35,412 nt of DNA, taken from the NCBI GenBank assembly GCA_905182635.1, contig CAJJCM010000070.1, positions 1 to 35,412 of the forward strand. The letters are read 5' to 3'. The DNA is from an uncultured Candidatus Poseidoniales archaeon. Its GTDB lineage: Archaea; Thermoplasmatota; Poseidoniia; Poseidoniales; Poseidoniaceae. The translations under genes were made by a program, and so were the position numbers. The notes under the pieces are model-generated. The model did not search any database. It was not told where the DNA came from and saw nothing but the letters and a program-made list of their open reading frames with translations. Shown piece after piece: positions 3,212-25,024 of this stretch (position 1 is the stretch's first letter; each line of letters begins with the position of its first letter).

Positions 3212-4585
3212 ATGTCACTCGATGGTGTTAATCTCGATAGAGGATTTTTTCAATTTACTATGCCCTATCATTGGCTCAGTTGGATTGGTTGGGTAATCGG
3301 ACTTTTGATGGTCTTAGGTGGTCTTGTGACTTTCATGGATGGGGGAGGAATAATTACTGCTTTCGGTTTTTTCGTAATTGCCCTGCTTTCTCCTGCCTCA
3401 CTCGAAGCTGACCTTCATAACGTCCGTAAGAACGCACCACAACCAAATGATTTGGAAGAGGCTGCATTAAAAAATGGTCATGAGATGGAATCTTGGTTCT
3501 TTGGCCGTTCATCCTACAGTCCAACCAATGACCCAAATGACTGGATTCTTTCAGCTCCTGGGCCCTCGACTTGGAACCAAGAAGACCGTTATGCTCCTGA
3601 TGGTGACGGTTCCGCACTTCCAGAACATCCAACGAAAGTAGGAACGCCTATTCCCGCAACGTTGGCAACGTTTGGAATCAGTATGGTTTTGTTCATTATA
3701 CTTCTTTCAGTCTCCCTCGGTATGCTTATTCTCGCAGAACAAGATGCATTTGCGAATGAAGAAGTTGTAGACGGCCAAGGGTCACTTGAGTTCACCCCAC
3801 TGGTGATGAGTATTGTCGGTGTGGTCTGGTTGATTATCGGATACCGCCAACATAAGAAACAGCAACAAATGATTGATACTCCAACCTCTTTAGTTCGCTC
3901 AGTAGCAGTCGGGTCAGCAGAACTCGTTGGACAAGTTCGTCCAGCACCTGAGCAATGGATCAATGTCGTTGTTGACGGAAATCAGCAACGTATGATACCT
4001 GGATGCGTAGATTACAAGTGGCTCTACGAAGTCTATGTTTGCCGACAGGTGACTTCAACAGACTCTGATGGGAATACAACCACGACAGAAGAATGCAATT
4101 GGCAAAATGTTCGTTCGGACAAAGGCGATGTTCCTTTCATGCTTCATGATGGTACGGGCGGAATTCGTGTTGAATCGGGTACTTTTAAGAGAAAGCACCT
4201 CGGGAATTTCATCAAGCAATGGACTTCAAGCCATGCAGATACATTACGAGACCATTTCAAAACCGAATTCGCTGCTCGGCTCTTTAGTGGCGGGGATGTC
4301 CGTAAACATCGATGGACTGCTCATGCGCTTCGTATCGGAAATCCAGTCTATTTGTTGGGAATGGTCAAACCTCGAGCAAGAGACGAACTTACGAACGAGG
4401 GTTTGGATGGTACAATTGGCCATACGACCATCTCAGTTCATGGTGAGGATCATCCCGGGATGAAAGCAAATATTCAGCGTGGTACTGAACTTGCAAATTT
4501 GGGTAGGATTCGTTCATCAGCGGAATTGCTAATTATGCCAATCGTCTGTGTTCTTTGTGGGATAGGCATGTTTGCGCTTCTTTGA
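3212..4585 (+). CDS. GIDE/BAM-like multi-pass membrane protein (first of tandem pair)
   Basis: The 457-residue product has two N-terminal hydrophobic segments (about 21-42 and 46-62), two central ones (about 148-175 and 195-212) and one at the C-terminus (about 436-457). The soluble block at about 225-420 resembles the GIDE/BAM ('beside a membrane') domain known from mitochondrial MUL1/MAPL and from prokaryotic membrane proteins. Matching elements are a SVAVGSAELVGQVRP start, then CVDYKWLYEVYVC, then VPFMLHDGTGGIRVE. There is no RING finger, so it is not predicted to be a ubiquitin ligase. It is followed 41 bases later by a same-length paralogue. Family membership is by motif resemblance; function is unknown. 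Confidence 0.75.
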   Translation: MSLDGVNLDRGFFQFTMPYHWLSWIGWVIGLLMVLGGLVTFMDGGGIITAFGFFVIALLSPASLEADLHNVRKNAPQPNDLEEAALKNGHEMESWFFGRSSYSPTNDPNDWILSAPGPSTWNQEDRYAPDGDGSALPEHPTKVGTPIPATLATFGISMVLFIILLSVSLGMLILAEQDAFANEEVVDGQGSLEFTPLVMSIVGVVWLIIGYRQHKKQQQMIDTPTSLVRSVAVGSAELVGQVRPAPEQWINVVVDGNQQRMIPGCVDYKWLYEVYVCRQVTSTDSDGNTTTTEECNWQNVRSDKGDVPFMLHDGTGGIRVESGTFKRKHLGNFIKQWTSSHADTLRDHFKTEFAARLFSGGDVRKHRWTAHALRIGNPVYLLGMVKPRARDELTNEGLDGTIGHTTISVHGEDHPGMKANIQRGTELANLGRIRSSAELLIMPIVCVLCGIGMFALL

Positions 4586-4626: not shown

Positions 4627-6000
4627 ATGGATGGCAAGGCGCCAGAATTACGCGGCGGATTTTTCATCGCTTCTCTTCCCTATACACAGGAAATGTGGAT
4701 TGGCTGGTCCCTCGGTGCACTGCTCTATGTTTTCGGCTTTTTCTTCAGTCCGTTTTGGGCCTTGTGTGGTCTTCTTCTGCTTATCTTTAACACCCCGCAC
4801 CCGTTTGCTCGAGAACTTGAACAATTCAAAGAAAAAGTATCCGACGAAAAGTTTCTCCATACCTATGCTGAAGAACGAGGCCACAGTTTTGAAAAGTACT
4901 GGCTTCCGAAGAGTCTGGATGGATTGAAGAACAATGCAGGAGAATGGCATTTCCCAACACCGAGTAAGCACGTTTGGAACTTGAAAGAACCTTATGTTGA
5001 AGACCAAGAAGGTTCATTGCTTTTTGAACACCCCTTCATGGTTGGTCCACCAAAGCCACCACTTTTCACACTCCGAGCAGTGTATTTCTCTCTCGGTCTC
5101 TTGATGCTTCAGTACTGGGGTGCTGTATCCGTTTTCAAATATCATTTGGATACGACCGTAGCGATTTTTGTGTTCTTAATGGAGTTCACATCGAGTCCAA
5201 TCTTTGGTATTGCTTTTGGAAGTGTCATCGTCCTCTCTTTATTGTATTTTTTCATATTCTTTTTATCGTCTTTATCAAAATCGATAGGCAACATGGAAAT
5301 GATCGAGATGCAAACTTCACTCGTCAGCTCAGCCCTCGTAGGAGAGGTGGAATTGATTGGTCAAGCACGACCAGGCCCACATGGTGCCCTGAAAATCTTT
5401 GTCGATGATAACCCTGCAATGTCGTGTGAAAATATTGTTTGTTATGAATGGGTGCGTGAAGACTTCCCGGCACAGGGTGATATGCCTATTTGGGCTACAC
5501 GGAACTTTTTCATGTATGGAGTTGGAAAAATATATTCAGTTTTTAATTTAATGTACCATCATGTATTCAATCTTATCAAATCACACACGCATGAATCTGC
5601 TCGCCAGAGTGGAGGTGTACCTTTCATTCTTCACGATGGAAGCGGTGGTATGCGAGTTGAACCTTCGATGTTTAAGAGAGTTCATTATCAAGTCCCACTC
5701 AATGTGTGGGACATCGGTTCCACTCGGTGGACTCTTTACGGATTGAGGCTGGGCGATCCGGTGTACATCCATGGGGAAATCACCACTCGTTCGGAAGAAG
5801 AACTGTCTGAAGAAAAAATTGATGAAACGCTGAGTAATTCGCTTCTCAAGGTCATTGGAAATGAAGACCCTCCTGGCAAAGAACTTATTCTGATTCAAGG
5901 CACTGAATACAGTATTCTTGCCTACGCCTACTCGCTGATGGAAACGCTCTATCTCCCGGTATTCTATCTGACTGTGTTTTTCATCCTCGGAATAGTATGA
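4627..6000 (+). CDS. GIDE/BAM-like multi-pass membrane protein (second of tandem pair)
   Basis: This is a diverged paralogue of the preceding gene, also 457 residues. Shared blocks in the same order include GFF..SLPY..WIGW near the N-terminus, LVSSALVGEVELIGQARPGP, GGVPFILHDGSGGMRVEPSMFKR, RWTLYGLRLGDPVYIHGEI, and an acidic ED.PG segment before the C-terminal hydrophobic helix. It differs in the middle of the soluble domain, where the first copy has a TSTDSDGNTTTTEE loop and this copy has an aromatic segment around IWATRNFFMYGVGKIYS. No RING or catalytic motif is seen. The pair probably arose by duplication and may act as a hetero-oligomer (inference). Confidence 0.75.
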   Translation: MDGKAPELRGGFFIASLPYTQEMWIGWSLGALLYVFGFFFSPFWALCGLLLLIFNTPHPFARELEQFKEKVSDEKFLHTYAEERGHSFEKYWLPKSLDGLKNNAGEWHFPTPSKHVWNLKEPYVEDQEGSLLFEHPFMVGPPKPPLFTLRAVYFSLGLLMLQYWGAVSVFKYHLDTTVAIFVFLMEFTSSPIFGIAFGSVIVLSLLYFFIFFLSSLSKSIGNMEMIEMQTSLVSSALVGEVELIGQARPGPHGALKIFVDDNPAMSCENIVCYEWVREDFPAQGDMPIWATRNFFMYGVGKIYSVFNLMYHHVFNLIKSHTHESARQSGGVPFILHDGSGGMRVEPSMFKRVHYQVPLNVWDIGSTRWTLYGLRLGDPVYIHGEITTRSEEELSEEKIDETLSNSLLKVIGNEDPPGKELILIQGTEYSILAYAYSLMETLYLPVFYLTVFFILGIV

Positions 6001-6030
6001 AGTTATCAGTCGATACGCTTTCGAAGTATC

Positions 6031-7251
6031 ATGGCAGATGATGTAGTCATTGTTGGCGGAGCAAGAACACCATTTTGTGAATGGGTTGGCGGTAAGCGTG
6101 GCGATGGTAAACAAGGTGGATTATTGAAGTCAATGACTGCTCAAGACCTCGGTGGTTTGGCAATAAAAGGCGCTCTTGAAAAGACGGGCACAGACCCTTC
6201 ATCGGTCGACCATGTCGTCATGGGCTATGCTTTACAGACATGTTCTCAATCGATTTATGGTTCACGTCATGCAGGTCTTAAAGGGGGTATACCTCAAGAA
6301 GTTCCAATGCTCACACTCTCTCGGATTTGTGGATCAGGTGTCCAGTCGATCATCACTGGGGCACAAATGATCATGCTTGGAGAAGCATCGACCGTCGTTT
6401 CAGGTGGAATGGAAAACCTCAGTCAAGCGCCTCACGTAATGCGTGGTGGGCGTGAAGGATGGAGACTCGGTCGTTCACCTCAGGTCGAAGATTACATGAT
6501 GACAAACCTTCAAGACATGACATGTGGCTTGTTTATGGCTCAAACTTCGGATGAAATCTGCAACCGAAAGGGTGTTACTCGTGAAGAAATCGATGCATAT
6601 GCTGCTCGTTCACACGCTCGTATTACGGCATCGATTGAAAACGATGTTTTTGAGCAAGAAATCATTCCTGTGACCATTAAGGGTCGTCGGGGAGATACGA
6701 TTGTAACGCACAAAGACGAAGACCATGTGGTCAAAAGCACAACAGAAGAATCACTGGCTAAACTCCCAACAGCATTTGGACCCGATTCATTTGTCACTGC
6801 AGGAAATGCTTCAGGTGTCGTCGATGGTGCAGCTGCTGTGGTCATCAAATCCGCATCACAAGCAAAAGCCGATGGCGATGAACCGCTTGCACGAATCGTC
6901 TCTTGGGGAATCGTAGGACTTGAACCTGCCATCATGGCTTATGGGCCTGTTCCTTCATCCCGTAAGGCCTTGGAGAAGGCTGGGCTCACAACAGACGATA
7001 TCGACCGCTGGGAGATTAACGAAGCCTTCGCCGGTCAAGCAGTTGCTTGTATCAAGGACCTTGAACTCGATGTGGAGAAAGTAAATGTCAACGGCGGTGC
7101 TGTTGGTTTGGGCCATCCACTTGCAGCAACGGGAACACGTTTGGTTCTCACACTCGCCTACGAATTGAAGCGCTGTGGTGGACGCTATGGTGTTGCAACT
7201 GCATGCATTGGTGGCGGTCAAGGTATTGCCATGGTTATTGAATCTCTTTGA
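6031..7251 (+). CDS. Acetyl-CoA acetyltransferase (thiolase)
   Basis: The 406-residue product is a full-length thiolase, condensing two acetyl-CoA or cleaving 3-ketoacyl-CoA. The nucleophilic cysteine is Cys100 in LSRICGSGVQS. The NEAFAGQAVA motif follows, then His362 in NGGAVGLGHPLAATG and the second catalytic cysteine Cys392 in ATACIGGGQG. This complete catalytic set marks the degradative/biosynthetic thiolase I/II type rather than the archaeal thiolase usually paired with HMG-CoA synthase and a DUF35 protein, neither of which is adjacent. It is more likely used in fatty acid or short-chain acyl-CoA metabolism, but a mevalonate role cannot be excluded. The ATG lies 30 bases after the previous stop. 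Confidence 0.95.
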   Translation: MADDVVIVGGARTPFCEWVGGKRGDGKQGGLLKSMTAQDLGGLAIKGALEKTGTDPSSVDHVVMGYALQTCSQSIYGSRHAGLKGGIPQEVPMLTLSRICGSGVQSIITGAQMIMLGEASTVVSGGMENLSQAPHVMRGGREGWRLGRSPQVEDYMMTNLQDMTCGLFMAQTSDEICNRKGVTREEIDAYAARSHARITASIENDVFEQEIIPVTIKGRRGDTIVTHKDEDHVVKSTTEESLAKLPTAFGPDSFVTAGNASGVVDGAAAVVIKSASQAKADGDEPLARIVSWGIVGLEPAIMAYGPVPSSRKALEKAGLTTDDIDRWEINEAFAGQAVACIKDLELDVEKVNVNGGAVGLGHPLAATGTRLVLTLAYELKRCGGRYGVATACIGGGQGIAMVIESL

Positions 7252-7345
7252 GTGATTCAATTTTCATCTTCTTGCTCTCACTGTTCAATCACAATGAGTT
7301 GTAACAAACATGAATCTATAAGCGAGTCGAACACCATTCACGACT

Positions 7346-7828
7346 ATGGATACACTTGCAATGACTACATTTTGGATATCATCGATACTTATTCTTCCGA
7401 TCTGGAGTCTTATGTGGTTCATGCCAAAGCATGAACTTACCAAAAAATTTGTCGGAGATCTTCGGTGGTCAGTTTTACCTCTGCTCATCCCATATACTCT
7501 TCTCGCACTTCCAAATGCACCGGATATTCTTTGGACATTCATGACGCAGATGCCAACTCCAGAAATTGTAGTTGAATTATTTGAGAATGAACAAATAGTC
7601 GCTCTTGCCTGGTTACACATGCTTGCTTTTGATGTGTTTGTTGGACGGTATGTTTGGTTGCGAATGCTTGCTGCCGACCGTCCAATGTATGTATCCACAC
7701 CGATTCTCGTTCTTTGCACAATGATGGCTCCACTCGGATTCTTACTTGGACTTCTTGCAACCTGGCAACAACACGATATCGGTGAAATGAAATTTAAGGT
7801 TCACTCGGATGCTTCTGTTGAAATCTAA
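7346..7828 (+). CDS. ABA4-like integral membrane protein (DUF4281)
   Basis: The 160-residue protein has about four transmembrane helices (near 8-26, 41-60, 83-105 and 117-140). It carries the hallmark of the ABA4/DUF4281 family, ALAWLHMLAFDVFVGRYVW, plus the PLGFLLGLLATW close. Plant ABA4 is needed for neoxanthin formation; prokaryotic homologues are uncharacterised. In a probably rhodopsin-bearing lineage a carotenoid or retinal link is attractive, but that is inference. It precedes a DUF2071 gene with essentially no gap, and that gene is in turn overlapped by a DCC-thioredoxin gene, so the three look like one transcription unit. Confidence 0.8.
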   Translation: MDTLAMTTFWISSILILPIWSLMWFMPKHELTKKFVGDLRWSVLPLLIPYTLLALPNAPDILWTFMTQMPTPEIVVELFENEQIVALAWLHMLAFDVFVGRYVWLRMLAADRPMYVSTPILVLCTMMAPLGFLLGLLATWQQHDIGEMKFKVHSDASVEI

Positions 7829-7832
7829 GAGG

Positions 7833-8621
7833 ATGATTCAAGACCATTCTCTCTTTGCAACAACCATGGCAGCAAACCATCAACTGGATTGTAGCCACAT
7901 TCCGTTTGCAATGCCTTTGAGAAAAAGTACATTGTACCAAAATTGGAAAAATCTCACCTTCATGCATTGGAAAGTTGATGCACAACTGCTGAAAAAACAT
8001 ATTCCTGAAGGCCTTGAAATTGACCTCTATAATGGAGAGGCCTATATTGGCGTCATTCCATTCACCATGGAAAAGGTCCGTCCAAGAGGACTTCCTTGGG
8101 TTCCTTTCATCTCGACCTTTGGTGAATTTAATATTCGAGCATATGTTACGAAAGATGGAATTCCCGGAGTCTTCTTCCTTACCCTTGATGCCCAAAGCAG
8201 AGTTACATGCTTTCATGCACCGCGCTCATATGGCCTTGCATATCGTTATGCAAAAGCCAAAGTTCAAGTTCAAACGGATGAGTGTTATTCCTGGTCTTCT
8301 CGACGTAGGGCTGGTGGTGAATCCTTGATTGGTACTACAAACAGTTCGGGTCCGATGGAACTGGCAGTTCAAGGTTCACTCGAATATTTCCTCTTTGAAC
8401 GTTACAGTTTGTATACATGGCACCAAGGCGTATTACATCGTGCATATACGCATCATCTTCCTTGGAAGTATTGTGCAGCACAGGTTGAGGTTGAGACAAA
8501 TACGTTGTTGGAATCATACCACCTTGGTATTGAAAAAATCCTTCATCCTGAACACATCCATATGAGTCCAGGAGTAAATGTCCAAACTTGGAATATTGAA
8601 CCGATTGAGGTGATGGAATGA
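7833..8621 (+). CDS. DUF2071 (YqjF-like) family protein
   Basis: The product matches DUF2071/COG3361 in sequence and spacing. Visible elements are LTFMHWKVDAQLLKKHIPEGLEIDLYNGEAYIGVIPF, then the RAYVTKDGIPGVFFLTLDA segment and the later YLFERY-like region (here FLFERYSLYT). No enzymatic function is established for the family. The start is uncertain. ATG 7833 is preceded directly by GAGG; ATG 7809 would overlap the upstream gene; ATG 7866 and 7911 are in frame and closer to the usual family start. The 3' end overlaps the next gene by four bases (ATGA), implying translational coupling. Confidence 0.83.
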   Translation: MIQDHSLFATTMAANHQLDCSHIPFAMPLRKSTLYQNWKNLTFMHWKVDAQLLKKHIPEGLEIDLYNGEAYIGVIPFTMEKVRPRGLPWVPFISTFGEFNIRAYVTKDGIPGVFFLTLDAQSRVTCFHAPRSYGLAYRYAKAKVQVQTDECYSWSSRRRAGGESLIGTTNSSGPMELAVQGSLEYFLFERYSLYTWHQGVLHRAYTHHLPWKYCAAQVEVETNTLLESYHLGIEKILHPEHIHMSPGVNVQTWNIEPIEVME

Positions 8622-9010
8622 CAAGTAAAGATATCATTTTGATGGATGGTGATTGTGGACTCTGCACCCATACAGCAGTGTTTCTTAATCCACGCCTCAA
8701 ACAACAACATTCGATTCGTTTTCTTGCGATTGAAAGTAAAGAAGGCCAGCAACTTATTTCGACCTTTCCGGAAAAATTCCAACTTGCGGATAGCGTCTAT
8801 CTGATTCGTGACGGTAAACCCTACATGCGTTCTGCAGCAGCCATTCGTTGTCTTCTTTACATGAAATGGTATTACTCAATGTGGTATCCATTGGTTTGGT
8901 TAATACCTTTGCCCCTCCGTAATTTTGTGTACCGGATAGTCGCTCGATATCGCCATCGTGTATTCAAGCGACCGGCGACATGTATTTTTCCTGGCTTGAA
9001 TCCAGAGTGA
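8618..9010 (+). CDS. DCC family thiol-disulfide oxidoreductase (DUF393)
   Basis: The 130-residue product starts with the family motif MDGDCGLC (cysteines 13 and 16) in a thioredoxin-like CxxC position. It continues with IRFLAIES, SVYLIRDGKPYMRSAAAIRCL and a hydrophobic, tryptophan-rich IPLPLRNFVYRIVARYRHRVF tail, all typical of DUF393. It may perform disulfide or redox chemistry at the membrane, but the substrate is unknown. Its ATG overlaps the stop of the DUF2071 gene (ATGA). The gene family is often found beside light-response genes in marine bacteria (general knowledge, recalled rather than checked here). Confidence 0.88.
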   Translation: MTSKDIILMDGDCGLCTHTAVFLNPRLKQQHSIRFLAIESKEGQQLISTFPEKFQLADSVYLIRDGKPYMRSAAAIRCLLYMKWYYSMWYPLVWLIPLPLRNFVYRIVARYRHRVFKRPATCIFPGLNPE

Positions 9011-9042
9011 AACATCATGACCTTCGGCTTGCTAGCAGTGTC

Positions 9043-10941
9043 ATGACGCAGACTTGGGTCGTTGATTCAAATTGCTTTATCCATCTTGGCTCGATGGCGC
9101 CTGATACTTTTGTCAAGGACATAACCAAGGTCCTCAAGAAAAAGAGCCAGATGCTTTTTGTTACGCCTGGTGTTCATGATGAAATTCGAAATGTCCGTTT
9201 CCAAAAATGGTCCAAAAAGCCGAAAGTATTGGATGAATTTGCCTCCCTCTTGACCACCATCGCCATTGACGATGGACAAATTCGAGGTCTTGCTCGAATG
9301 ATTGGTGAGAAGGCCTCACCGCAAGATGTCGACCTCTCTTTGATGGTACTTGCATCACAACTTCAACGGGAAGGTCGAGAAGTGATTTTAGTAACCGATG
9401 ATTTCAAAATGACGACATCTGGCGAAAAAGCGAATCTTGGCTATACGACCTGCCCTCCTTCTACTTTCATTCAGCGCCTCTCTGCACAAAGTCCTTCGAA
9501 AAATAAAGGTCGAATGAAAAGTCTTTCACGGCGTGTGAGGGCCGCTGAGATGCGTTATGCCATCAGTCGAGTTCATCAATATGATATTCAGGCAAAATTA
9601 ACTTGGATGGTCGATTCATTGATTGAAGACCGTCCACAATCACAGAAAGCAACATCAGACGATGCTTCTGAAGTGAACCTCAAACGTGCCTTACAACGAA
9701 CATTGGCAGGTGAACAGATCAAGGGAAACCATTTGAAAAAGTTGGGTGATTTACCACAGATTTGCCAACCGATTCTCTCACTCGATACCCATCTCTCTCA
9801 ACTCACTTCGACCAATTCTTCCGAGCATCTTCGTGAAGTCTATGAGGAAACTCTCCTCTTACTCAGCGAGGTATTGGAATCTATCGGCCTTGATTTGGCT
9901 CCACTGGATGAGTCTTCTGCCGAACTTGCCAACAGTGCGCTCAGTGGATATTTGTATCGTACAGAGACCGCTTTGGGTTTGATGGCGAAAATGTCTGGAC
10001 GACGTGAAACTGCGCGATTACATCTTTCCCGAGCGCTTCAATCAGCCACCCTCATCGACGACTCATTTGCCGAGATGCATGCAGTCTACCAACTCGGACT
10101 TCTTGCAATTGCTTCAGAGAAATGGAAACGTTCTGCTCGATTATTTGAGACTGCAGACCGACAAGCACAATTGATTTCAGCACCGAGATTACCTTATCTT
10201 GTATGTGCTGGGATTTCACGACATCTCCTCGATGAGGCACACGCTGCCGAGCAACATATTCAGCGTGCAAAGGCTCTTGTTTCGAATGATAAAAAACAAG
10301 CATCAGTTCACTTGATGAACCTCGGTGAATCCTTGTTGGCCATCGACCAGCCCGGTTTGGCTTTGGAAGTTCTCGATGAAGCAATGGAATGTACGTTGCA
10401 AATCGGTTCTCAAGAACAACTTGAGATACTCTCCGAACACATCTTGATGGCGAATGCTGCAATGACACATACCGACATGCTTCAGCATGAAGGATTGCGA
10501 ACTCTGCTGGATGGGTTGAATCATTTAAATGAAGAAGAGACTGAAGAATACGCAAAGAAAATGAAGACGATTGAGTGGCGCGTCAATGAGCATAATAAGC
10601 CCTTTGAGGATACTTGGAAAGTCTGGCAACCTTCGAGTAAACTGATTCCAGAAGCGGCTACACTCCGCGTTGTGCGTGCCGAAGTTGATGAAAACCAAGA
10701 CACACTGGTTGTTGTCCATCATCCTGAACTTGGCTCAATCGGCCTGTGGCTGCCAGAGGGTGAATGGAACGTATCTTCGGGCCATTTACTCTCATTTGCT
10801 CACACCCGAGTCAAACTCGCTCAGCCAACCGTTGAACTCCAAGAAAAGCACAGTATCCGTGGGATTGTCGCTGTTGAAGACACATCACAACTGATGTTCA
10901 ATGCGCCATCAGATGACTTTATCCTTGAGACTGAGGGTTAA
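9043..10941 (+). CDS. PIN-domain protein with TPR-like helical region and C-terminal beta domain
   Basis: From the preferred ATG at 9043 the product has 632 residues. Residues 1-145 form a PIN nuclease domain with a full acidic set: Asp8 in WVVDSN, Glu47 in PGVHDEIRN, Asp95/Asp97 in SPQDVDLSL, and Asp119/Asp120 in LVTDDFKM. Residues about 230-510 are helical repeats of TPR character (alternating A/L/G/Y positions, for example MHAVYQLGLLAIASEKWKRSARLFETA). Residues about 540-632 look beta-rich. It is probably an RNA-cleaving enzyme with a protein-binding scaffold. Unlike VapC toxins there is no antitoxin gene beside it. An upstream in-frame start at 8980 would overlap the previous gene and is less likely. 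Confidence 0.8.
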   Translation: MTQTWVVDSNCFIHLGSMAPDTFVKDITKVLKKKSQMLFVTPGVHDEIRNVRFQKWSKKPKVLDEFASLLTTIAIDDGQIRGLARMIGEKASPQDVDLSLMVLASQLQREGREVILVTDDFKMTTSGEKANLGYTTCPPSTFIQRLSAQSPSKNKGRMKSLSRRVRAAEMRYAISRVHQYDIQAKLTWMVDSLIEDRPQSQKATSDDASEVNLKRALQRTLAGEQIKGNHLKKLGDLPQICQPILSLDTHLSQLTSTNSSEHLREVYEETLLLLSEVLESIGLDLAPLDESSAELANSALSGYLYRTETALGLMAKMSGRRETARLHLSRALQSATLIDDSFAEMHAVYQLGLLAIASEKWKRSARLFETADRQAQLISAPRLPYLVCAGISRHLLDEAHAAEQHIQRAKALVSNDKKQASVHLMNLGESLLAIDQPGLALEVLDEAMECTLQIGSQEQLEILSEHILMANAAMTHTDMLQHEGLRTLLDGLNHLNEEETEEYAKKMKTIEWRVNEHNKPFEDTWKVWQPSSKLIPEAATLRVVRAEVDENQDTLVVVHHPELGSIGLWLPEGEWNVSSGHLLSFAHTRVKLAQPTVELQEKHSIRGIVAVEDTSQLMFNAPSDDFILETEG

Positions 10942-11753
10942 AAACCGCCGATGTCAGCCACATACTTCAAACCAACAACGACGATGACGAACAAGAATAT
11001 TTTCATCAATTGCTGTTCAGAAAGGTACTTCATGCCGTATTTAGCACCGCTTCGAGAACCAAGAAGCGTTAGGGCCATTAAAATGGAGATCAATACAATC
11101 TCTTTACCGAGTATGGAATACTGTTCAGAAGATAACGTCAAAAGATGAGCCAAGATTGCAACAGGTACTGCCACCATCATGAAATGGAGGCTTGTTCCAA
11201 TTGCCTTACGTGGCTCAAGGTGAGCAAACGTTCGTAACACTGGGACATAAATGATACCTGCTCCAATCGCCAAGACACTTGACAGCACACCGCCAATTCC
11301 TGCACCGATTTGCAAAGGTATCGATTGAATATCCTCATTGCTTTCATCACCTGAAGCGAGTTGAATGTTCGAATCGGACTTCATCTTCATTGCCGTTTTG
11401 TAAACCGCCCAAGTAATCATGGCAAGGCTCAACAGTTTGAAGACAAAATCCATCTTTTCACCGATGATGACAACAATCCCGACCCCAAGAACAGCACCTG
11501 GAATTGCACCTTTCAGCCCAATGTTGAGCGATACATCATCATAATGTTTTTCAGTTCTGTGAGCAAGGCCACTCCCCCAACTCACAACAGCCGTGAGTGA
11601 GAGAGATACGGCAAAGAGTGCGCCATTGATTTCCCAGCCTAAACCATAGTGAAGTAAAGGCACAAACAGCATTCCTCCACCCATGCCAATAGGTGCAAAC
11701 AAAAAGGCGACAACAAATATCCCCAGTGAAATGATAAGAGTTTCAACAATCAT
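10938..11753 (-). CDS. TauE/SafE family membrane permease
   Basis: The 271-residue protein is almost wholly hydrophobic with about eight transmembrane helices arranged as two repeats. The first starts FLFAPIGMGGGMLFVPLLHYGLGW and the second IGAGIGGVLSSVLAIGAGIIYVPVL, the duplicated glycine-rich signature of the COG0730 sulfite/anion exporter family. Members move sulfite, sulfoacetate or other organic anions; the substrate here cannot be told. A short polar loop (about residues 126-145, SDSNIQLASGDESNED) separates the halves. The stop codon shares bases with that of the PIN-TPR gene (TTAA at 10938-10941). It is divergent from the LemA gene. Confidence 0.88.
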   Translation of the reverse strand: MIVETLIISLGIFVVAFLFAPIGMGGGMLFVPLLHYGLGWEINGALFAVSLSLTAVVSWGSGLAHRTEKHYDDVSLNIGLKGAIPGAVLGVGIVVIIGEKMDFVFKLLSLAMITWAVYKTAMKMKSDSNIQLASGDESNEDIQSIPLQIGAGIGGVLSSVLAIGAGIIYVPVLRTFAHLEPRKAIGTSLHFMMVAVPVAILAHLLTLSSEQYSILGKEIVLISILMALTLLGSRSGAKYGMKYLSEQQLMKIFLFVIVVVGLKYVADIGGF

Positions 11754-11894
11754 TCGAGTCCCCCAGCGTTCCTAATCTCTACTCATGTATGAATCAACCA
11801 TGCAGATATGGCAATGGCAGTCGTTCTTGCTTCAAGACCTTGCCTCCTCTCGGTGAGAGCGAACCAATGGTTTCAAAGCGTAGAGTTCTCACGA

Positions 11895-12476
11895 ATGGAC
11901 ATGGCTGATATTGCATTGATAGGTGGCATAATTGCTGGATTCTTTTTACTAATATTTATTGTATGGTTTTTCTCAACATGGAACCGCTTAGTTAATCTTG
12001 AAGAAAACATAAACAACTCATGGGCTCAAATCTCAGTTCTCTTGAAACAACGCTATGATATGATTCCGAACCTCGTCAACATTGTAAAGGGTATGGCAAA
12101 ACAAGAAATTCAATTTTTCGATAAATTATTCGAAGCCCGTGGTGCAGCAGCTGGTGCTTTGAAAAATGGAGATATTGCAGGGGTCGCTCGTGCAGAAAGT
12201 ACACTCTCTGCTATGATTCCTAAAATCAACATGGTTGCCGAGCAATACCCTGAACTCAAATCTGATGCTGGTTTCCTCAACATTCAAAATCAACTTGTTG
12301 CAATGGAAAACAGCATTGCAGACCGCCGAGAGTTTTACAATTCATCTGTGACTGCTTTTAACAAAACTATTCAAATGATCCCAACTGTATTTGTGGCGAA
12401 TATGAAAGGCTGTGAACGCCGTGACCTGTTCGAAATAACCGCAGAAGAACGTGAAAATGTCATCATCGAATTTTGA
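11895..12476 (+). CDS. LemA family protein
   Basis: The product (about 193 residues from ATG 11895; ATG 11901 is equally possible) has one N-terminal transmembrane helix. The LemA signature WNRLVNLEENINNSWAQISVLLKQRYDMIPNLVNIVKG follows, then long helices ending in an MIPTVFVANMKG-like segment. LemA proteins are membrane-anchored helical bundles of unclear role, in some species linked to phosphorylation or peptide presentation. The open frame reaches back to 11808, but the extra 29 residues do not resemble family members, so a later start is chosen. No TPM-domain (YgcG) partner gene, common in bacteria, is present next to it. Confidence 0.88.
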   Translation: MDMADIALIGGIIAGFFLLIFIVWFFSTWNRLVNLEENINNSWAQISVLLKQRYDMIPNLVNIVKGMAKQEIQFFDKLFEARGAAAGALKNGDIAGVARAESTLSAMIPKINMVAEQYPELKSDAGFLNIQNQLVAMENSIADRREFYNSSVTAFNKTIQMIPTVFVANMKGCERRDLFEITAEERENVIIEF

Positions 12477-12544
12477 GTTGTTAAACATCGCATCTCAAGC
12501 GTACCTTCAAACCGCAAGAGGAGAAAGAGTGGACTGGTGGAGTT

Positions 12545-13945
12545 ATGTTTCTCATCATCGGATCTGGACAACTCGCCATACGGTTGAGTCAATGGTGTGC
12601 TGAACGACGTAGAAGTATCTTGATTGGACTCGCTGCTCATCTCCCCCTTGATGGCCCATTAGAGGGCTGCGAAATCATTGCGCTCCCAAGCCCAACTTTA
12701 CTCAACTCACTACCGCTGGATGCCCACAAGCCAACAGCAGTTCTTTTGCTCGACCCCGAAGCATTAGCAGATGTCGCTCCACTTGCTGCATTGCAAAACC
12801 GTTGGGCGAATATACCGATACTCACCACCTTGCCGCTGAAAGGCGATGGTGTCGATTTGATCAGTGTCGATGACGTTTCGTTTGCAGCCATGCAAGACCG
12901 CATTCGTTCCTGGGAACGAAAAGACGGTGCTGGGGTCGTGTTGCATTATCTTCAATCAATACCTCAAAAATCGAAGGTGGCCATATTTTGCCACGATAAC
13001 CCCGACCCTGATGCGTTGGGTGCTGGATTAGCGATGTATGAGTTGGTACAGCACATGGGCCTGGTTCCAGAATTATTGCATGGTGGACTCATTGAGCATC
13101 ACCAGAACCGGGCAATGGTCCGTCTGCTCGATATTCCAGTTCGGCGTCTGATTCTTGATTGGGAAGTTCAAGATGTTTTGCGAGATGCTGCGGTTGTCAT
13201 GACCGTCGATTTCCATCGCCCAGGAGCCAATAATATACTTCCAGATGATTGTGTACCTCATATTGTCCTTGACCATCACTCACTTGAAGAATCAGTTGCT
13301 GCAGATATCGCACTTGTTCTCCCTGAGTTTTCAGCCACCTCATCACTTGTCGCAAGTATCCTGATGAGCCTCAATCATCCGATTACTGCTCGTGTCGCTA
13401 CTGCACTCGCCTTTGGTATACGAACTGACACACTCGGGTTTACTCGTAATTTCAATCCAGTTGACATTCGGGCTTTGTCATGGCTCAATGCCTTCGTCGA
13501 TAAGGACTTACTCCGTTCTATAGAAGAACCGCCACGGTCCCAAGAAACACTCGAATCCTTTGCAGAAGCATTGGGTTCTCGTTCATTGTTTGATTCAACA
13601 CTGCTGGCACCATTGTCATCGATGCCCAACAGAGATTCGTTGGCCCAAATTGCAGATTTCCTCCTTCCGACTGAAGGAATTGATACGGTCATCGTCTTTG
13701 GTCCACGGCGTGGGAAAGTCATTCTCTCTGCTCGTACGACCAATGAATCTCTCCATCTTGGACGGGTCTTTTCCGAAAAATGGGACGGCGGTTTATCCGG
13801 TGGACATAAAGCGTTAGCAGGTGGCCAAATACCATTCAATATCCTTCTTTCTACCGTTCCTGACGACCCTGATGAGGCTGCGATTCAGGCTGTTGAAGCA
13901 ATGGGTTTAGAATTGAAAAAATTATTTCAAAGCGAGGTAGAATGA
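12545..13945 (+). CDS. TrkA-N-like/DHH/DHHA1 phosphoesterase
   Basis: The 466-residue protein has three parts. Residues 1-125 look like a Rossmann TrkA-N domain, starting MFLIIGSGQLAIRL with the glycine turn GSG at 6-8. Residues about 140-330 are the DHH phosphoesterase core, with HDNPDPDALGAG (150-161), VDFH (221-224) and DHH (243-245) as metal ligands, plus GIRTDTLGF (291-299). Residues about 340-466 are DHHA1, with GGHKALAGG (419-427). The core resembles NrnA/RecJ-type enzymes that cut short RNA, pAp or cyclic dinucleotides; the Rossmann fusion is an archaeal architecture that may sense a nucleotide. Start ATG 12545 follows GGTGGAG. The 3' end overlaps the TraB gene. Confidence 0.9.
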   Translation: MFLIIGSGQLAIRLSQWCAERRRSILIGLAAHLPLDGPLEGCEIIALPSPTLLNSLPLDAHKPTAVLLLDPEALADVAPLAALQNRWANIPILTTLPLKGDGVDLISVDDVSFAAMQDRIRSWERKDGAGVVLHYLQSIPQKSKVAIFCHDNPDPDALGAGLAMYELVQHMGLVPELLHGGLIEHHQNRAMVRLLDIPVRRLILDWEVQDVLRDAAVVMTVDFHRPGANNILPDDCVPHIVLDHHSLEESVAADIALVLPEFSATSSLVASILMSLNHPITARVATALAFGIRTDTLGFTRNFNPVDIRALSWLNAFVDKDLLRSIEEPPRSQETLESFAEALGSRSLFDSTLLAPLSSMPNRDSLAQIADFLLPTEGIDTVIVFGPRRGKVILSARTTNESLHLGRVFSEKWDGGLSGGHKALAGGQIPFNILLSTVPDDPDEAAIQAVEAMGLELKKLFQSEVE

Positions 13946-15108
13946 TGGCTGAAACTCCCATTGTCGATATCTCTCCAACGCTTCGAATCCTTGGAACTGC
14001 TCATGTGTCGACTGCAAGTGTCGTTGCAGTTCGTGAACAGATCAAGACCTATCAGCCGGATATTGTTGCAGTTGAGTTATGTGCTTCACGTCATGAAGCA
14101 CTCACCAGTAATCGTCGTCTGGACAAAGAGGGATTGCTCAAAGTAGTCAAAGAAGGTAAAGCACCTCTGGTTCTTCTTCAATCATTGTTGGCTGCAGAAC
14201 AACGAAAGATGGGGCTTGATGAAGGCGAGCAACCTGGGGCCGAACTGCTTGTTGCTGTTCAAGAGGCTGAAGCAGCAAACCTTGAGGTCGCGCTGATTGA
14301 CCGTGATATCCAAACGACATTACGTCGAGCATGGAAGAAAATGCGATTCCGAGAGAAATTCAGAATACTTCGGTCTTTATTGGGCGATGATAAAGACGAT
14401 GATGAAAGTCCAGAACTGAATGAATTACTTGAAAACCAAGATTTGTTGACTTCATTAATGGAAGAGTTACGAACGTTCTCACCTGGGGCAGGCATTGTTT
14501 TAATTGATGAAAGGGATGCTTTTCTCGCGGGTAAAATCTCTTCTCTTCAACCATCGGATAAGAAGATTTTAGCGGTCGTTGGCGCCGGTCACCTGAAAGG
14601 CATTGAACAGCATTTGACCAACGGTACAGTTCCGGACAAAGAGGGTTTGCACCAACTTGAACATCTTCCAGTACGGAGTCGTTTTTCCAAAAGTATTCCG
14701 TGGTTAATACCTCTCTTTGTAATGAGTTTGATGGTGTATTTCGTGGCGAAAGGAGATGGCGTAAATTTACTGGAAATGTTCACGGTGTGGACTGCAGCGA
14801 ATGCCGTCTTTGCAGCACTTGGATGTGCGCTTGCTCGTGGGCATCCTTTGGCGATCCTCACTGCTGCCGCCGCTTCGCCAATCACTTCATTGAATCCAAC
14901 ACTTGCGGCAGGTTGGTTTGCTGGTTACGTCCAACTGAAGATGAGGGAGCCAACGGCTGAAGATTTGCAACAATTCCTCAAACTCGAAAGTTTGGGTTCC
15001 TTTTGGAGCAACAAAGCCGGAAGAGTTTTGCTGGTCACTTCTCTTTCCAATCTCGGTAGTATGGCAGGAGCTTGGTTTGCTGCTGCTGGATTATTGGGTA
15101 GCCTTTGA
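13942..15108 (+). CDS. TraB/PrgY-family membrane protein
   Basis: The 388-residue protein opens with the TraB signature LRILGTAHVSTASV and DIVAVELCASRHEAL, followed by a long helical region with VLIDERDAFLAGKI and AVVGAGHLKGIEQHL. Four or so transmembrane helices occupy the C-terminal third (about 250-388). The family includes the enterococcal PrgY/TraB pheromone-shutdown proteins and eukaryotic TRABD; the fold is related to erythromycin esterase-like/TIKI proteases, and conserved Gx2H and Glu residues are present. The substrate is unknown. The first ATG overlaps the DHH gene stop by four bases, with GAGGT just upstream, so the two genes are very likely translationally coupled. Confidence 0.9.
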   Translation: MMAETPIVDISPTLRILGTAHVSTASVVAVREQIKTYQPDIVAVELCASRHEALTSNRRLDKEGLLKVVKEGKAPLVLLQSLLAAEQRKMGLDEGEQPGAELLVAVQEAEAANLEVALIDRDIQTTLRRAWKKMRFREKFRILRSLLGDDKDDDESPELNELLENQDLLTSLMEELRTFSPGAGIVLIDERDAFLAGKISSLQPSDKKILAVVGAGHLKGIEQHLTNGTVPDKEGLHQLEHLPVRSRFSKSIPWLIPLFVMSLMVYFVAKGDGVNLLEMFTVWTAANAVFAALGCALARGHPLAILTAAAASPITSLNPTLAAGWFAGYVQLKMREPTAEDLQQFLKLESLGSFWSNKAGRVLLVTSLSNLGSMAGAWFAAAGLLGSL

Positions 15109-15110
15109 GT

Positions 15111-15977
15111 TTAGTCAATTGCATTGAGGACATTGAACACATCGATGTGCTCTTGGACATCATGAACTCGTACAACATCAATGCGCTCAAAGTGGGCCAA
15201 CGATGCAATGGCGAGCGTGCCACTCAATCGTTCAGAGGGTTCTGAGTGGCCGGTTAATTGTCCAATGATGGACTTGCGAGATACGCCCCAGAGCACAGCA
15301 AATCCTTCGATGCCACGAAATAATTCATGGCGTTGCAAGAGTTCGATGTTGTGGTCAAGTGTCTTGCCAAAGCCGATACCTGGGTCTAGTATGATGTACT
15401 CGGCAGGATGGCCTGCTGCAACCAATCCTCGTGCAGTTTCGAGTAATTGCGAACTGACTTCTTTTGCGCAATCCTCGTATGTTGGTTGAATTTGCATCGT
15501 TTGAGGTGTGCCTTGCATATGCATGATACAAACGCCGCAACCACTGTCAAGAACAATTTTGACCATTTCAGGATCACGTAATCCCGATACATCATTGATT
15601 AAATCTGCTCCAGCATCAAGTGCTGCTTGGGCAACTTGAGGTCTACGGGTATCAATGGAAATTAAATTCTCAGAATTTGCTGCTCGAAGTGCCTCGATGA
15701 CGGGAATGACACGCTCTAATTCTTCTTCAACCGATACAGGATCTGCATTTGGGCGAGTCGACTCGCCTCCAACATCTACCCATGTGGCTCCCAGTTCCCA
15801 CATACCTAAACCTGCTTGGACCGCAGATTCAAGTGTAGTTTTTCGACTTTCTTCATGGAATGAGTCCGGTGTGACATTAAGTATTCCCATCACATGACAT
15901 GAGTTCGTTTCATCTCGATGTAAACCTGTAGAAATACGGTTCCGGTGAACAACCCGAGGTCGGAAGTCATCGCCCAT
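15111..15977 (-). CDS. folP: Dihydropteroate synthase
   Basis: Condenses 6-hydroxymethyl-7,8-dihydropterin pyrophosphate with p-aminobenzoate to form dihydropteroate. The 288-residue product shows the hallmark series: MGILNVTPDSF, DVGGESTRP, ISIDTRR, LINDVSGL, IMHMQGTPQTMQ, ILDPGIGFGKT, LWGVSRKS and a final RVHDV. All match single-domain DHPS. With folB and a pterin carbinolamine dehydratase elsewhere in the window it points to a bacterial-type folate pathway rather than tetrahydromethanopterin. The gene converges with the TraB gene (two bases between stops) and diverges from the membrane protein at 16023. Confidence 0.96.
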   Translation of the reverse strand: MGDDFRPRVVHRNRISTGLHRDETNSCHVMGILNVTPDSFHEESRKTTLESAVQAGLGMWELGATWVDVGGESTRPNADPVSVEEELERVIPVIEALRAANSENLISIDTRRPQVAQAALDAGADLINDVSGLRDPEMVKIVLDSGCGVCIMHMQGTPQTMQIQPTYEDCAKEVSSQLLETARGLVAAGHPAEYIILDPGIGFGKTLDHNIELLQRHELFRGIEGFAVLWGVSRKSIIGQLTGHSEPSERLSGTLAIASLAHFERIDVVRVHDVQEHIDVFNVLNAID

Positions 15978-16022
15978 GAACCCTGCGAGTTCGGCAGATT
16001 TGATAAGATGTGAGTGTCAAGC

Positions 16023-16670
16023 ATGGGCATGTCCGGTGATACTATGGAGAATTCTTTAGAGGAATTCGGGCAAGATGAAGAGAGGTTCGGTCCCCGTGGC
16101 CCGAGTGAACACCGACGAGAACTGGCAGACCGATTGATTCGTCGCCTCAATGTAAAAGAGCACAATGCAATCTTCGAAATGATTTCTGCAAAGGCTTACT
16201 ACGGCGGTATTTTAATTATGATACTGGTCTTCTTTTATTGGATTTTCATCCATTCTGCCAGCGATAACCCCGAACTTGGAGTTTCGATTTTAATGCAATT
16301 AAGTTTTGCAGATGTTGCTATTGCTGTTATGGTATTCGGGCTCTTTTCTGCTTTCTTTAGAGATTACAGCAGAGAATTAGGTCAACTGCTGCCTTCGCTC
16401 ATCTCTGGAGGAATGATTATCGTATGTGGATTTTATTTCATCGAACCATTGGTCTATGGTTTTGTTTCAAACGAACTTGAAATTCAAACGGCTCTTTGGC
16501 GTAGTCTTCGGCTGGGCTTCCTTTGGGGTGGTGTGACGTTTTGCGCACATTTCCTCGTTGATGCATCACTTCTACTGTGGTTGAAACAGTTCTGCGCCAA
16601 TCACGACATCGATATCTCACCCGAGGCTGAAGAACACATACCAGACCCTCCTGTAGAATCAATCGCTTGA
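16023..16670 (+). CDS. Four-helix membrane protein of unknown function
   Basis: I do not recognise a family. From the ATG at 16023 the product has 215 residues; a GTG at 16014 is in frame and possible. The N-terminal 55 residues are charged and probably cytoplasmic. Four hydrophobic segments follow at about 60-77, 88-111, 122-142 and 163-186. The C-terminal tail is acidic (ISPEAEEHIPDPPVES). It starts close to the start of folP on the other strand, so the two share a short divergent promoter region, and lies 40 bases upstream of trm56. Confidence 0.75.
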   Translation: MGMSGDTMENSLEEFGQDEERFGPRGPSEHRRELADRLIRRLNVKEHNAIFEMISAKAYYGGILIMILVFFYWIFIHSASDNPELGVSILMQLSFADVAIAVMVFGLFSAFFRDYSRELGQLLPSLISGGMIIVCGFYFIEPLVYGFVSNELEIQTALWRSLRLGFLWGGVTFCAHFLVDASLLLWLKQFCANHDIDISPEAEEHIPDPPVESIA

Positions 16671-16710
16671 CGACTGCACCTTTCTTGTAGGATTGGCAAC
16701 TCGAAGCATC

Positions 16711-17280
16711 ATGACAGGTGAACGTGTCGATGTTCTACGACTGGGCTATCGCCTTGGTCGAGACCCCCGAATCACCACACACCTTGCTTTGGTTGGGCGT
16801 GCTCTTGGTGCCAACCGTTTTCTTTTAGCAGGCGATAAAGATCCAAAGATGTTTGAAAACCTCGATTCAGTAGCAAGTCGCTTCGGTGGTGGAATGGATT
16901 GTGAGCACATCAAAAGCCCTATGCGTTGGCTTAGACGCTTTGTTGAGGAAGATGCTGGTGATGGAATGCCAGGTGTAGCTGTTCATTTGACCATGTATGG
17001 GGAACCGTTCCGTGAAGCAATCCCTCGTATTCGACGAGATCGTCCAATGGTGATTGTCGTAGGTGGTGCCAAAGTACCTGGTGATGTTTACAAATACAGT
17101 CAATACAACATCGCTGTGGGCAATCAACCTCATTCCGAAGTCGCCGCATTGGCTTTGTTTTTAGACGCCTGGTATGGCGAGGCTGGAAGTAACCGAACCT
17201 TCGATGACGCTCGGCTCATTATCGAGCCATCGGCGAACGGAAAGAGCGTTCGGGATTTAGACCGTGAAGAAGAAGAGTGA
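16711..17280 (+). CDS. tRNA (cytidine-56-2'-O)-methyltransferase (aTrm56)
   Basis: Archaea-specific SPOUT-class enzyme that 2'-O-methylates C56 in the T-loop of tRNAs using S-adenosylmethionine. The product (about 189 residues) shows VDVLRLGYRLGRDPRITTHLALVGRALGA at the start, GVAVHLTMYGEPF in the middle, and the strongly conserved VVGGAKVPGDVYKYSQYNIAVGNQPHSEVAALALFLD block. That block forms the SAM-binding knot. Length fits the family. The open frame extends to a TTG at 16693, but ATG 16711 is the natural start. The acidic tail (DLDREEEE) is a minor oddity. Confidence 0.95.
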   Translation: MTGERVDVLRLGYRLGRDPRITTHLALVGRALGANRFLLAGDKDPKMFENLDSVASRFGGGMDCEHIKSPMRWLRRFVEEDAGDGMPGVAVHLTMYGEPFREAIPRIRRDRPMVIVVGGAKVPGDVYKYSQYNIAVGNQPHSEVAALALFLDAWYGEAGSNRTFDDARLIIEPSANGKSVRDLDREEEE

Positions 17281-17310
17281 TTACATACTTACTTGTGGTC
17301 TTGCGCTTGA

Positions 17311-17326
17311 TTTTATTTTTCTTTTC
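17311..17326 (+). terminator. T-rich tract between trm56 and carA
   Basis: A run of about 13 T residues in 16 bases lies 30 bases after the trm56 stop and 35-90 bases before the possible carA starts. Oligo-T alone can end archaeal transcripts, so it may terminate the trm56 unit. The same T/A-rich patch (TTTTATTTTT) could instead serve as a TATA element for carAB; the sequence cannot decide. Confidence 0.4.
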
Positions 17327-17361
17327 CACTTCACTGTACCCGTTATTTCCGCACCTGCTTG

Positions 17362-18708
17362 ATGCCAATTATTATGGGGGTTCGTTTTCGACCAAAACTG
17401 ATGTCGGTATTGGGTGTACAAACCGGCACTTTTAGTCCGGGAGGAAAACAACGCGGCGTTTCCGACGCTCCTACCTTTCCTGATGCCGCAGACGGGCTCT
17501 TGTATGGTGTTGATTTACCACCATCAGCAGATGGTCCCGGTGTGCTACTTACAGCCGATGGAGGGCGCTATTGTGGCACCCTCTTTGGAGCACGTGGCCA
17601 TGGCGAGGGCGAGTTGGTATTCACCACAGGAATGATGGGGTATCAAGAATCGTTAACCGACCCTTCCTTTGCAGGACAAGTGCTGACCTTCACCTATCCT
17701 TTGATCGGGAACTACGGCATTCACGCTGGAGCATCTGAATCTGCCGGTGTATGGCCAAGAGGTGTGGTTGTGCGCCATGCCATGCAGCAACCAGACCACC
17801 GCCATTCAATTGCAACAGTGGAAGATTTACTCCGTTTACATAGCGTGCCTGGCATTGAAGGTATTGATACTCGTGCAATTACGCAAAGAGTTCGGGAACT
17901 TGGGACTGTGCTCTGTGTCTTTGGACCTGAATCCGAAGAAGCACTTCTTCAACAGCGACTCAAGCAACTGACCTCTCCTGACCTTGATGACTTGGTCGAC
18001 CAAGTCTCGCTCTCCACTCCTGTGATTTTGAATCATGGTGCGTTGGATGCACTCGACCATCCACTGCCACGTCTTGGAGTTCTTGACTGTGGGATAAAAT
18101 ACAATATCTTACGTAACCTCTGTCTTCATTTCGAAGTGGTCTGGTGCCCTCCTGAAACACCGTATGATGTACTCGTTCAGGAATATCAGATCGATGCATT
18201 GTTTTGCTCAAATGGCCCTGGTGACCCTGCTCATCCCGGAAAAGCAACCATGGCTCGTAATACGTTGGCTCAAGCAGTTCAAGCAAAGTTACCAGTCATG
18301 GGCATTTGTCTTGGACATCAATTGATGGGATTGGCATCCGGTTTGCAAACATACAAAATGCGCTATGGGCATCGTGGGGCAAACCAACCGGTCATCGATT
18401 TGAAGACTGGTTTGGTCACCATCACCAGTCAAAACCATGGTTTTGCAGTTGCAGACCCTGATGCAGGTATGCTTGCGGCTCATCCAAGTGGTGCATGTTC
18501 GCCCCCGAGTGCCAATCAACACGGCGCTGAAGTTGTGGTTCGTTTTGTCAATGCAAACGACCGAACGGTCGAAGGATTAGACCTTGTAGGCCACCCTTCG
18601 TTTACGGTTCAATTCCACCCTGAAGCTTGTCCAGGTCCTCATGATGCAGCACCTTTGTTCAAGCATTTCCGTGATATTGTCGATGAAGCCTTGGGAGGTG
18701 TAAACTGA
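17362..18708 (+). CDS. carA: Carbamoyl phosphate synthase small subunit
   Basis: Glutaminase subunit that supplies ammonia to CarB for carbamoyl phosphate, used in pyrimidine and arginine synthesis. The N-terminal CarA domain is clear (GELVFTTGMMGYQESLTDPSFAGQVLTFTYP). The class I glutamine amidotransferase domain has SNGPGDP, the nucleophile Cys in MGICLGHQLMGLASG (about residue 316) and the His/Glu pair in VQFHPEACPG (about 419 and 421). There is an N-terminal extension of about 40-55 residues compared with E. coli CarA, depending on start (TTG 17359, ATG 17362, 17374 or 17401). The stop overlaps the carB start by one base (TGATG). Confidence 0.95.
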   Translation: MPIIMGVRFRPKLMSVLGVQTGTFSPGGKQRGVSDAPTFPDAADGLLYGVDLPPSADGPGVLLTADGGRYCGTLFGARGHGEGELVFTTGMMGYQESLTDPSFAGQVLTFTYPLIGNYGIHAGASESAGVWPRGVVVRHAMQQPDHRHSIATVEDLLRLHSVPGIEGIDTRAITQRVRELGTVLCVFGPESEEALLQQRLKQLTSPDLDDLVDQVSLSTPVILNHGALDALDHPLPRLGVLDCGIKYNILRNLCLHFEVVWCPPETPYDVLVQEYQIDALFCSNGPGDPAHPGKATMARNTLAQAVQAKLPVMGICLGHQLMGLASGLQTYKMRYGHRGANQPVIDLKTGLVTITSQNHGFAVADPDAGMLAAHPSGACSPPSANQHGAEVVVRFVNANDRTVEGLDLVGHPSFTVQFHPEACPGPHDAAPLFKHFRDIVDEALGGVN

Positions 18709-21700: not shown

Positions 21701-22052
21701 CATCCCAATTGCTCGTGAACTCGCTGAAATTGGATTCACACTCTATGCCACGCCTGGAACATGTGATGCTCTTCGTGAGGCTGGCGTTACTGCTAACGTC
21801 GCTTATCGTATCGCTGATAAAAATCATCCAGATGCATTGGACCTCATGCGACAGGGCGCAGTTTCGTTCATTGTCAATGTCCCTACAATCTCTGGGGGGG
21901 CGGTTCGTGATGGAAACATGATGCGCCGTTTGGCTGTCGAATTGAATATACCATTTGTCACTACTCTACGTGGTGCTAAAATGGAAGTCGCTGCAAGTAA
22001 GGCCAAATTGAGTGGACCACTGGAACCACGAAAGTTAACTGTGCATTACTGA
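18708..22052 (+). CDS. carB: Carbamoyl phosphate synthase large subunit
   Basis: The 1114-residue product has the full internally duplicated layout. The first half opens VLGSGPIKIGQAAEFDFSGSQAV and carries an ATP-grasp domain around LIRPAFTLGGLGGG (about residue 165). An oligomerisation region lies at about 400-550. The second half opens VGSGPIRIGQGIEFDYGCVHAV, with ATP-grasp signature LIRPSYVLGGRGMEI near 757. A C-terminal MGS-type allosteric domain spans about 980-1114. It makes carbamoyl phosphate from bicarbonate, ammonia and two ATP. It is slightly longer than the 1073-residue E. coli protein. It is cotranscribed with carA and ends back to back with the next gene (TGATCA at 22050-22055). 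Confidence 0.98.
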   Translation: MPRRDDLKTILVLGSGPIKIGQAAEFDFSGSQAVRALREDGYEVILVNSNPATIQNDPEMADIIYIEPLLADTVRRILEIERPCALLAGMGGQTALNIASELAHDGSLERLGIELIGSDLDAIDKAEDRELFNQVCKSINLPISNAIACKTMDEVIAAAESIGTWPLLIRPAFTLGGLGGGTAWDMGQLVEIATLGLRNSRISQVLIEESILGWQELEYEVMRDGADNATIVCTMENIDPMGVHTGESTVVAPLQSFSDADHQILRDQALALIRELNIKGGCNVQFAYNQSTGETRVIEVNPRVSRSSALASKATGYPIARMAAKIAVGYTLDELPNPITGKGTTAAFEPTLDYCVVKIPRWPFDKFRTADRTLGTSMKSTGEVMAIGRNFEEAFLKAWASLEQGYAHPRPLTRADESEGEGMAERALTALPDSTLVEWCRVATDRRMGALIEAFRRGWSVEKVHEITRITRWFLYRFENIAHIEKEITNTAALPAELNREQLRSWKSHGFSDEHIADALAGFPSTGPRFLPHGRNEEAVMRRRHTLALHPRFRMVDSCAAEFAAETPYYYSTYELDDAKGIDLLPDLDMRTKERLVTVGSGPIRIGQGIEFDYGCVHAVKAIRQAGKDAILINNNPETVSTDFDTSDRLYFEPLTLEYVSEILLREQAHGILLQFGGQTAINLALPLKERLSVLKPLGLDLSIMGTSCDAVDEASDRERFEAFAKRAGLRMPNGMTGTTAEDVRKAAMAIGFPVLIRPSYVLGGRGMEILSNQQQLDAYLNEAYLAPDKPLLVDEYLGHATEMDVDAVCDGKDVLVGAIMEHLEEAGIHSGDSTCFIPAQNISDALLEKIAEQTKIIGLGLNIRGCYNIQFALQGDDLYVLEVNPRSSRTVPFVAKATGLPMARIGANVTIGIPLSEQEIPRRTSGQVCVKAPVFPFIKLRGLDPAPGPEMKSTGEVYGSDVSADLAYLKARLATEVPVATSGGAYLTVRNEDKKSLIPIARELAEIGFTLYATPGTCDALREAGVTANVAYRIADKNHPDALDLMRQGAVSFIVNVPTISGGAVRDGNMMRRLAVELNIPFVTTLRGAKMEVAASKAKLSGPLEPRKLTVHY

Positions 22053-23324: not shown

Positions 23325-23412
23325 AGAGGGCAATGGTCGCTCACCACTTTTCAAGTATGACGGTCGGATAGGGTAAAAAGAGCATGAAACAACTCCAAAT
23401 GAGAAAAACCAG

Positions 23413-25020: not shown

Positions 25021-25024
25021 GTGT

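Follow-up and report, generated by a model that had tools for sequence, protein, structure and literature searches.

Two gene modules, an ABA4-like membrane protein and a DUF2071-DCC pair, meet in part of one genus of Marine Group II archaea

The adjacent genes for an ABA4-like protein, a DUF2071 protein and a DCC1-like oxidoreductase in a marine archaeon are two modules that have met and not one ancient unit. The true conserved unit is the DUF2071-DCC pair, which occurs across the order Poseidoniales, and ABA4 is its neighbour in part of the genus g1 only. For the ABA4 family, a light- or carotenoid-related reading is solidly supported by both statistics and gene position; for DUF2071-DCC the support is weaker, and for a joint biochemical function of the two modules there is none yet. 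The window, i.e., the whole stretch of 35,412 nucleotides that was analysed, belongs to Candidatus Poseidoniales (Marine Group II), family Poseidoniaceae, genus label g1 (f1/f2 and g1-g22 are group labels of the surveyed genome set), and its source genome is 66.5% complete with 1.33 Mb. The features of the window that matter here are as follows.

6031..7251, + strand: thiolase, upstream of ABA4
7346..7828, + strand: ABA4-like protein (PF14108), type A, 160 aa, assigned by Pfam, with four predicted membrane helices
7866..8621, + strand: DUF2071 protein (PF09844) with a predicted acetoacetate-decarboxylase fold; the frame is open from 7809 and the conserved start is 7866
8618..9010, + strand: DCC1-like thiol-disulfide oxidoreductase (PF04134), assigned by Pfam, with a DGDCGLC motif; one protein with DUF2071 in other lineages
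9043..10941, + strand: frame of 653 codons matching no Pfam family; open from 8980, with a probable start at 9043

The three families named in the initial annotation are indeed present, all of them over the curated Pfam cut-offs. The ABA4-like protein matches PF14108 with 84.9 bits against a cut-off of 27 (profile positions 2-126 of 127), DUF2071 matches PF09844 with 195 bits, well over its cut-off, and the DCC1-like protein matches PF04134 over its full length with 69.5 bits against 27.8, the CxxC within DxxCxxC (DGDCGLC) being present. The tight spacing that had been described holds for the DUF2071 and DCC genes, which share a 4-nt ATGA overlap, but probably not for ABA4 and DUF2071, whose 4-base spacing was counted from a start at 7833. 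In-frame ATGs of DUF2071 lie at 7809, 7833 and 7866, and as six relatives share the 7866 start and neither of the others, the gap is probably 37 nt. None of crtB, crtI, crtY and blh was found among the ten window proteins scanned (4627-15105), and the locus is not a member of that gene cluster. The protein of the 9043..10941 frame has a PIN-like N-terminus, recognised by eye only, and its homologue lies 3' of DCC in those g1 trio loci whose flank is long enough, as in the window. Most g1 relatives carry an MMPL exporter gene between the thiolase and ABA4, which is absent in the window and in genome G022. Further upstream, the window encodes two 457-aa proteins that belong to one family and lie in tandem (3212-4585 and 4627-6000), the first of which has a weak, below-cut-off match to the GIDE domain.

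The survey covered 244 Poseidoniales genomes, of which 167 carry ABA4, 206 DCC, 150 rhodopsin and 117 DUF2071 by tally (113 after setting aside four weak hits, which belong to a second subfamily or fall below the cut-off). Counted from gene positions, ABA4 lies immediately 5' of DUF2071 in 23 genomes, all of them from g1, of which 48 genomes were sampled. A separate scan of GTDB took the best 80 DUF2071 loci, and ABA4 directly precedes DUF2071 in 27 of these. Both counts put this gene order far beyond chance, and it is kept beyond the window genome, contrary to one refuting condition of the initial annotation. Downstream sequence was sufficient in 76 of the 80 loci, and DCC directly follows DUF2071 in 71 of these 76, including 20 loci with a single fused protein of about 375 aa (DUF2071 at 1-244, DCC at about 252-375). 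It is this adjacency or fusion in 71 of the 76 testable loci that identifies DUF2071-DCC as the conserved unit. The DCC proteins of the order outside the DUF2071-paired subfamily are 32-42% identical to the paired DCC. The best 80 GTDB loci are all from Poseidoniales or labelled euryarchaeote, bar one contig labelled Rhodobiaceae (L189), which carries a fused DUF2071-DCC of the Poseidoniales type and is most likely a binning error.

The trio as such, however, is not conserved throughout the order. In f2, g2, g3 and g4 there is no linkage between the pair and ABA4, in the other genera read the pair stands without ABA4 in unrelated surroundings, and the pair has no link of its own to crt genes. 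The suggestion that the three genes make up one carotenoid unit is not supported, and one ancient three-gene carotenoid operon is rejected, as most lineages show no linkage of ABA4 to the pair. In g18 (L103 and L104) a several-gene block of the window (13942-25623) is shared, and the DUF2071-DCC pair lies inside it, about 10 kb further along; thus, the region is conserved but the position of the pair within it has changed. On plasmids, DUF2071 homologues were found in haloarchaea, Priestia and Streptomyces; neither DCC nor ABA4 stands beside DUF2071 in the two regions read (haloarchaeon, Priestia), and the plasmid search found no type A ABA4. A plasmid of Halorientalis marina (L158:7143-8429) encodes a 429-aa protein with a C-terminal ABA4 domain and an N-terminal half without Pfam match.

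The ABA4 family is strongly associated with rhodopsin. Rhodopsin is present in 135 of the 167 genomes with ABA4 and in 15 of the 77 without it (odds ratio 17; types A and B are pooled in these counts, the window gene being of type A, and the genomes are mostly MAGs). The association is also seen within genera, where 119 genomes with both genes would be expected and 133 were observed (z=5.4). The 35 genomes with a completeness of 90% or more split likewise, with rhodopsin in 21/23 of those with ABA4 and 1/12 of those without, and incompleteness is therefore not its main cause; the control squalene/phytoene synthase was found in 239/244 genomes. An equal frequency in dark lineages is not observed: in the six rhodopsin-free genera (26 genomes), which stand in for dark lineages in these counts, ABA4 occurs in one genome, and DUF2071 and photolyase in none. 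DUF2071 shows a weaker association with rhodopsin (odds ratio 3.3; z 2.8 within genera), and DUF2071 and ABA4 are likewise associated within genera (z=4.1). In 7/8 genomes of g21, about 1-3 kb separate the pair from rhodopsin, an arrangement that probably arose once, in an ancestor. Co-occurrence with rhodopsin is strong for ABA4 and less so for DUF2071, and the trio itself is confined to part of g1. A rhodopsin-linked role in carotenoid or retinal metabolism fits ABA4, which tracks rhodopsin and adjoins phytoene desaturase-family genes, Blh and photolyases, but not the DCC family as a whole, which is not light-linked and is common in rhodopsin-free genera too. The literature searched contained nothing on archaeal ABA4 in combination with rhodopsin.

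Two ABA4 paralogues occur in Poseidoniales: type A, to which the window protein belongs, and type B. Type B is only 22-28% identical to the window protein, for which reason the functions of the two types may differ, and the residues W89, H91, D96, W104 and R106 are invariant across both. In g1, type A has no adjoining crt gene, its neighbours being a thiolase or MMPL, and in g9 it directly follows a CrtI-family gene in 4/4 loci. Type B follows this same CrtI-family gene in f2, often with a thioredoxin-like lipoprotein in between. In G115, 17 nt separate it from a blh gene upstream, and in G066 and G037 it adjoins blh. The blh gene beside ABA4 in G037 (G037:C12:65740-66243) aligns with the profile over its C-terminal two thirds only, has an internal stop and looks broken. 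Type B directly precedes a photolyase match, at about 110 bp, in G159 and G210, and in several g1 genomes photolyases lie no more than about 2 kb away from it. The thioredoxin-like CxGC lipoprotein, with a weak AhpC-TSA match, recurs between CrtI-family or MMPL genes and ABA4 (L110:9609-10214 on the + strand, L118:10757-11341 on the - strand).

These observations bear on other explanations of the locus. The trio might be a lineage-specific accident of gene order, in which DUF2071-DCC serves a housekeeping function in redox or metabolite detoxification that has nothing to do with carotenoids, and ABA4 landed upstream of it in one g1 clade. The lineages in which the pair is unlinked to ABA4 favour such an accident, as do the haloarchaeal and Priestia homologues of DUF2071 with neither DCC nor carotenoid genes nearby; the tight spacing throughout the g1 trio loci, the lack of DUF2071 in all 26 genomes of rhodopsin-free genera and its within-genus co-occurrence with ABA4 argue against it, and we consider it possible but somewhat unlikely. 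The co-occurrence of ABA4 with rhodopsin, for its part, may reflect a shared photic habitat and not a shared pathway. The genes would then be accessory genes of sunlit-water lineages, e.g., stress or UV genes, correlated with rhodopsin via habitat only. In favour of this, photolyase tracks rhodopsin too, and it has been reported from all pR-bearing genera (PMC6461757). Habitat alone does not readily account for ABA4 standing next to CrtI-family and blh genes in several genera, and such hitch-hiking is unlikely.

A function in the cell envelope has also been weighed for type A, which together with MMPL, a small membrane protein and the thioredoxin-like lipoprotein could form a set for lipid export or envelope maintenance, concerned with the traffic of membrane isoprenoids or lipids and not with pigment. 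The assignment to the MMPL family is confirmed, and type A stands 3' of all three genes in 12/12 g2 loci examined and 3' of MMPL in the 9 g1 trio loci examined. However, the window has no MMPL, and the occurrence of the same lipoprotein between the CrtI-family gene and type B in f2, along with that of type A after the CrtI-family gene in g9, ties the set back to carotenoids; such a lipid or envelope function is regarded as quite improbable.

It has already been published that most rhodopsin-bearing Marine Group II have no known retinal-making enzyme (PMC6336850). Blh was found in 27/244 genomes and is absent from 127 of the 150 with rhodopsin, and in the 20 loci fetched blh belongs to a crtB-crtY-blh cluster or to what remains of such a cluster. 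ABA4 is carried by 114 of the 127 rhodopsin-positive, Blh-free genomes of the whole survey, and by 43/43 such genomes in a panel of 50 that was chosen by hand from ABA4 carriers, the other seven having Blh. True CrtY (E<1e-38) is restricted to these seven within the panel, and no recognised lycopene cyclase or carotenoid oxygenase was found in the 43 Blh-free members. Two candidates for filling the gap, the CrtYcd-type lycopene cyclase (PF18916) and the RPE65-type oxygenase (PF03055), each gave 0/50 in the panel. The ABA4-linked CrtI-family protein (TIGR02734 crtI_fam, 456 bits against a cut-off of 238) shares 31-34% identity with the CrtI encoded in the crtB-crtY-blh cluster and is a separate, second desaturase of the family. 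It occurs in most rhodopsin genomes tested and in 2/17 tested from rhodopsin-free genera (G050 and G103). This second desaturase, widespread in rhodopsin-bearing Marine Group II and often adjoining ABA4, is seen at L118:11341-12945 (- strand) and has homologues in f2 and g9.

Being a carotenoid-linked gene that tracks rhodopsin, ABA4 is a concrete, testable candidate for the retinal gap in Marine Group II, and no earlier report of it as a marker of Blh-free rhodopsin genomes was found in the literature searched. ABA4 as a simple replacement of Blh is unsupported, since 24/27 Blh genomes also carry ABA4, directly after blh in some. A more specific proposal is that the ABA4-like protein and its CrtI-family partner supply the missing step, be it ring formation, isomerisation or help with cleavage, and so provide retinal or an antenna carotenoid for proteorhodopsin in Marine Group II without Blh and CrtY, with DUF2071-DCC binding the aldehyde product or protecting it by redox; this would be a long shot and is highly doubtful.

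The preferred reading, to which about an even chance is given, is that two modules of rhodopsin-bearing (photic-zone) Marine Group II have come together at this locus, a carotenoid or retinoid handler and a carbonyl binder or altered enzyme with a dithiol domain. The model of the ABA4-like protein is a helical membrane bundle (pLDDT 88) with which the hydropathy peaks agree, and the protein is thus predicted to be multi-pass; a structure search with this model gave no PDB relative with E below 2. It most likely handles a carotenoid or retinoid from CrtB/CrtI-type enzymes, and may act as an isomerase or rearrangement enzyme or serve the pathway as a membrane scaffold. The second module, DUF2071-DCC, would be in effect one two-domain protein. 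The DUF2071 model (pLDDT 91) has 24 Foldseek matches with E<1e-8, all of them ADC-like, at a TM of about 0.6. The relation of DUF2071 to the ADC superfamily has been proposed before, and the Schiff-base lysine has been reported as not conserved in PF09844 (PMC4520260). An alignment of 32 Poseidoniales sequences has no invariant lysine, nor one in columns of 90% conservation, and the classic Schiff-base decarboxylation is for that reason unlikely. DUF2071 is probably an ADC-fold barrel that binds, or acts as an altered enzyme on, a carbonyl-type hydrophobic metabolite, and DCC, as a CxxC dithiol domain, could reduce or redox-gate this barrel. The two modules may be functionally coupled in the window. 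The literature search found nothing on the function of DUF2071 beyond its fold. The DUF2071-DCC fusion offers a first functional handle on two uncharacterised families.

Several known systems resemble parts of the locus. The plant and algal ABA4 proteins (PF14108, formerly DUF4281) share with the archaeal ones the Pfam family over the whole domain, the membrane location and the association with carotenoids. Arabidopsis ABA4 is needed for neoxanthin and diatom ABA4 boosts fucoxanthin, and the diatom homologue showed no neoxanthin synthase activity in vitro (all as cited in PMC10840463). The archaeal side differs in having two divergent paralogues set beside CrtI-family, Blh and photolyase genes, and no xanthophyll genes were seen in the archaeal ABA4 neighbourhoods read; a role of archaeal ABA4 in neoxanthin formation or another carotenoid step is putative, based on genomic linkage. 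The acetoacetate decarboxylase superfamily (ADC, MppR, Swit_4259) has the fold predicted for DUF2071, which differs from it in having no invariant lysine and in being joined to a DCC domain. Likewise, the DCC1-like/DUF393/YuxK oxidoreductases share full-length PF04134 and the DGDCGLC motif with the window DCC, whereas the window subfamily is paired or fused with DUF2071. The crtB-crtY-blh retinal cluster of Marine Group II is also light-associated, and ABA4 type B directly follows its blh in some genomes; it differs from the window trio, which has none of its enzymes, and its Blh is limited to the 27 genomes counted above.
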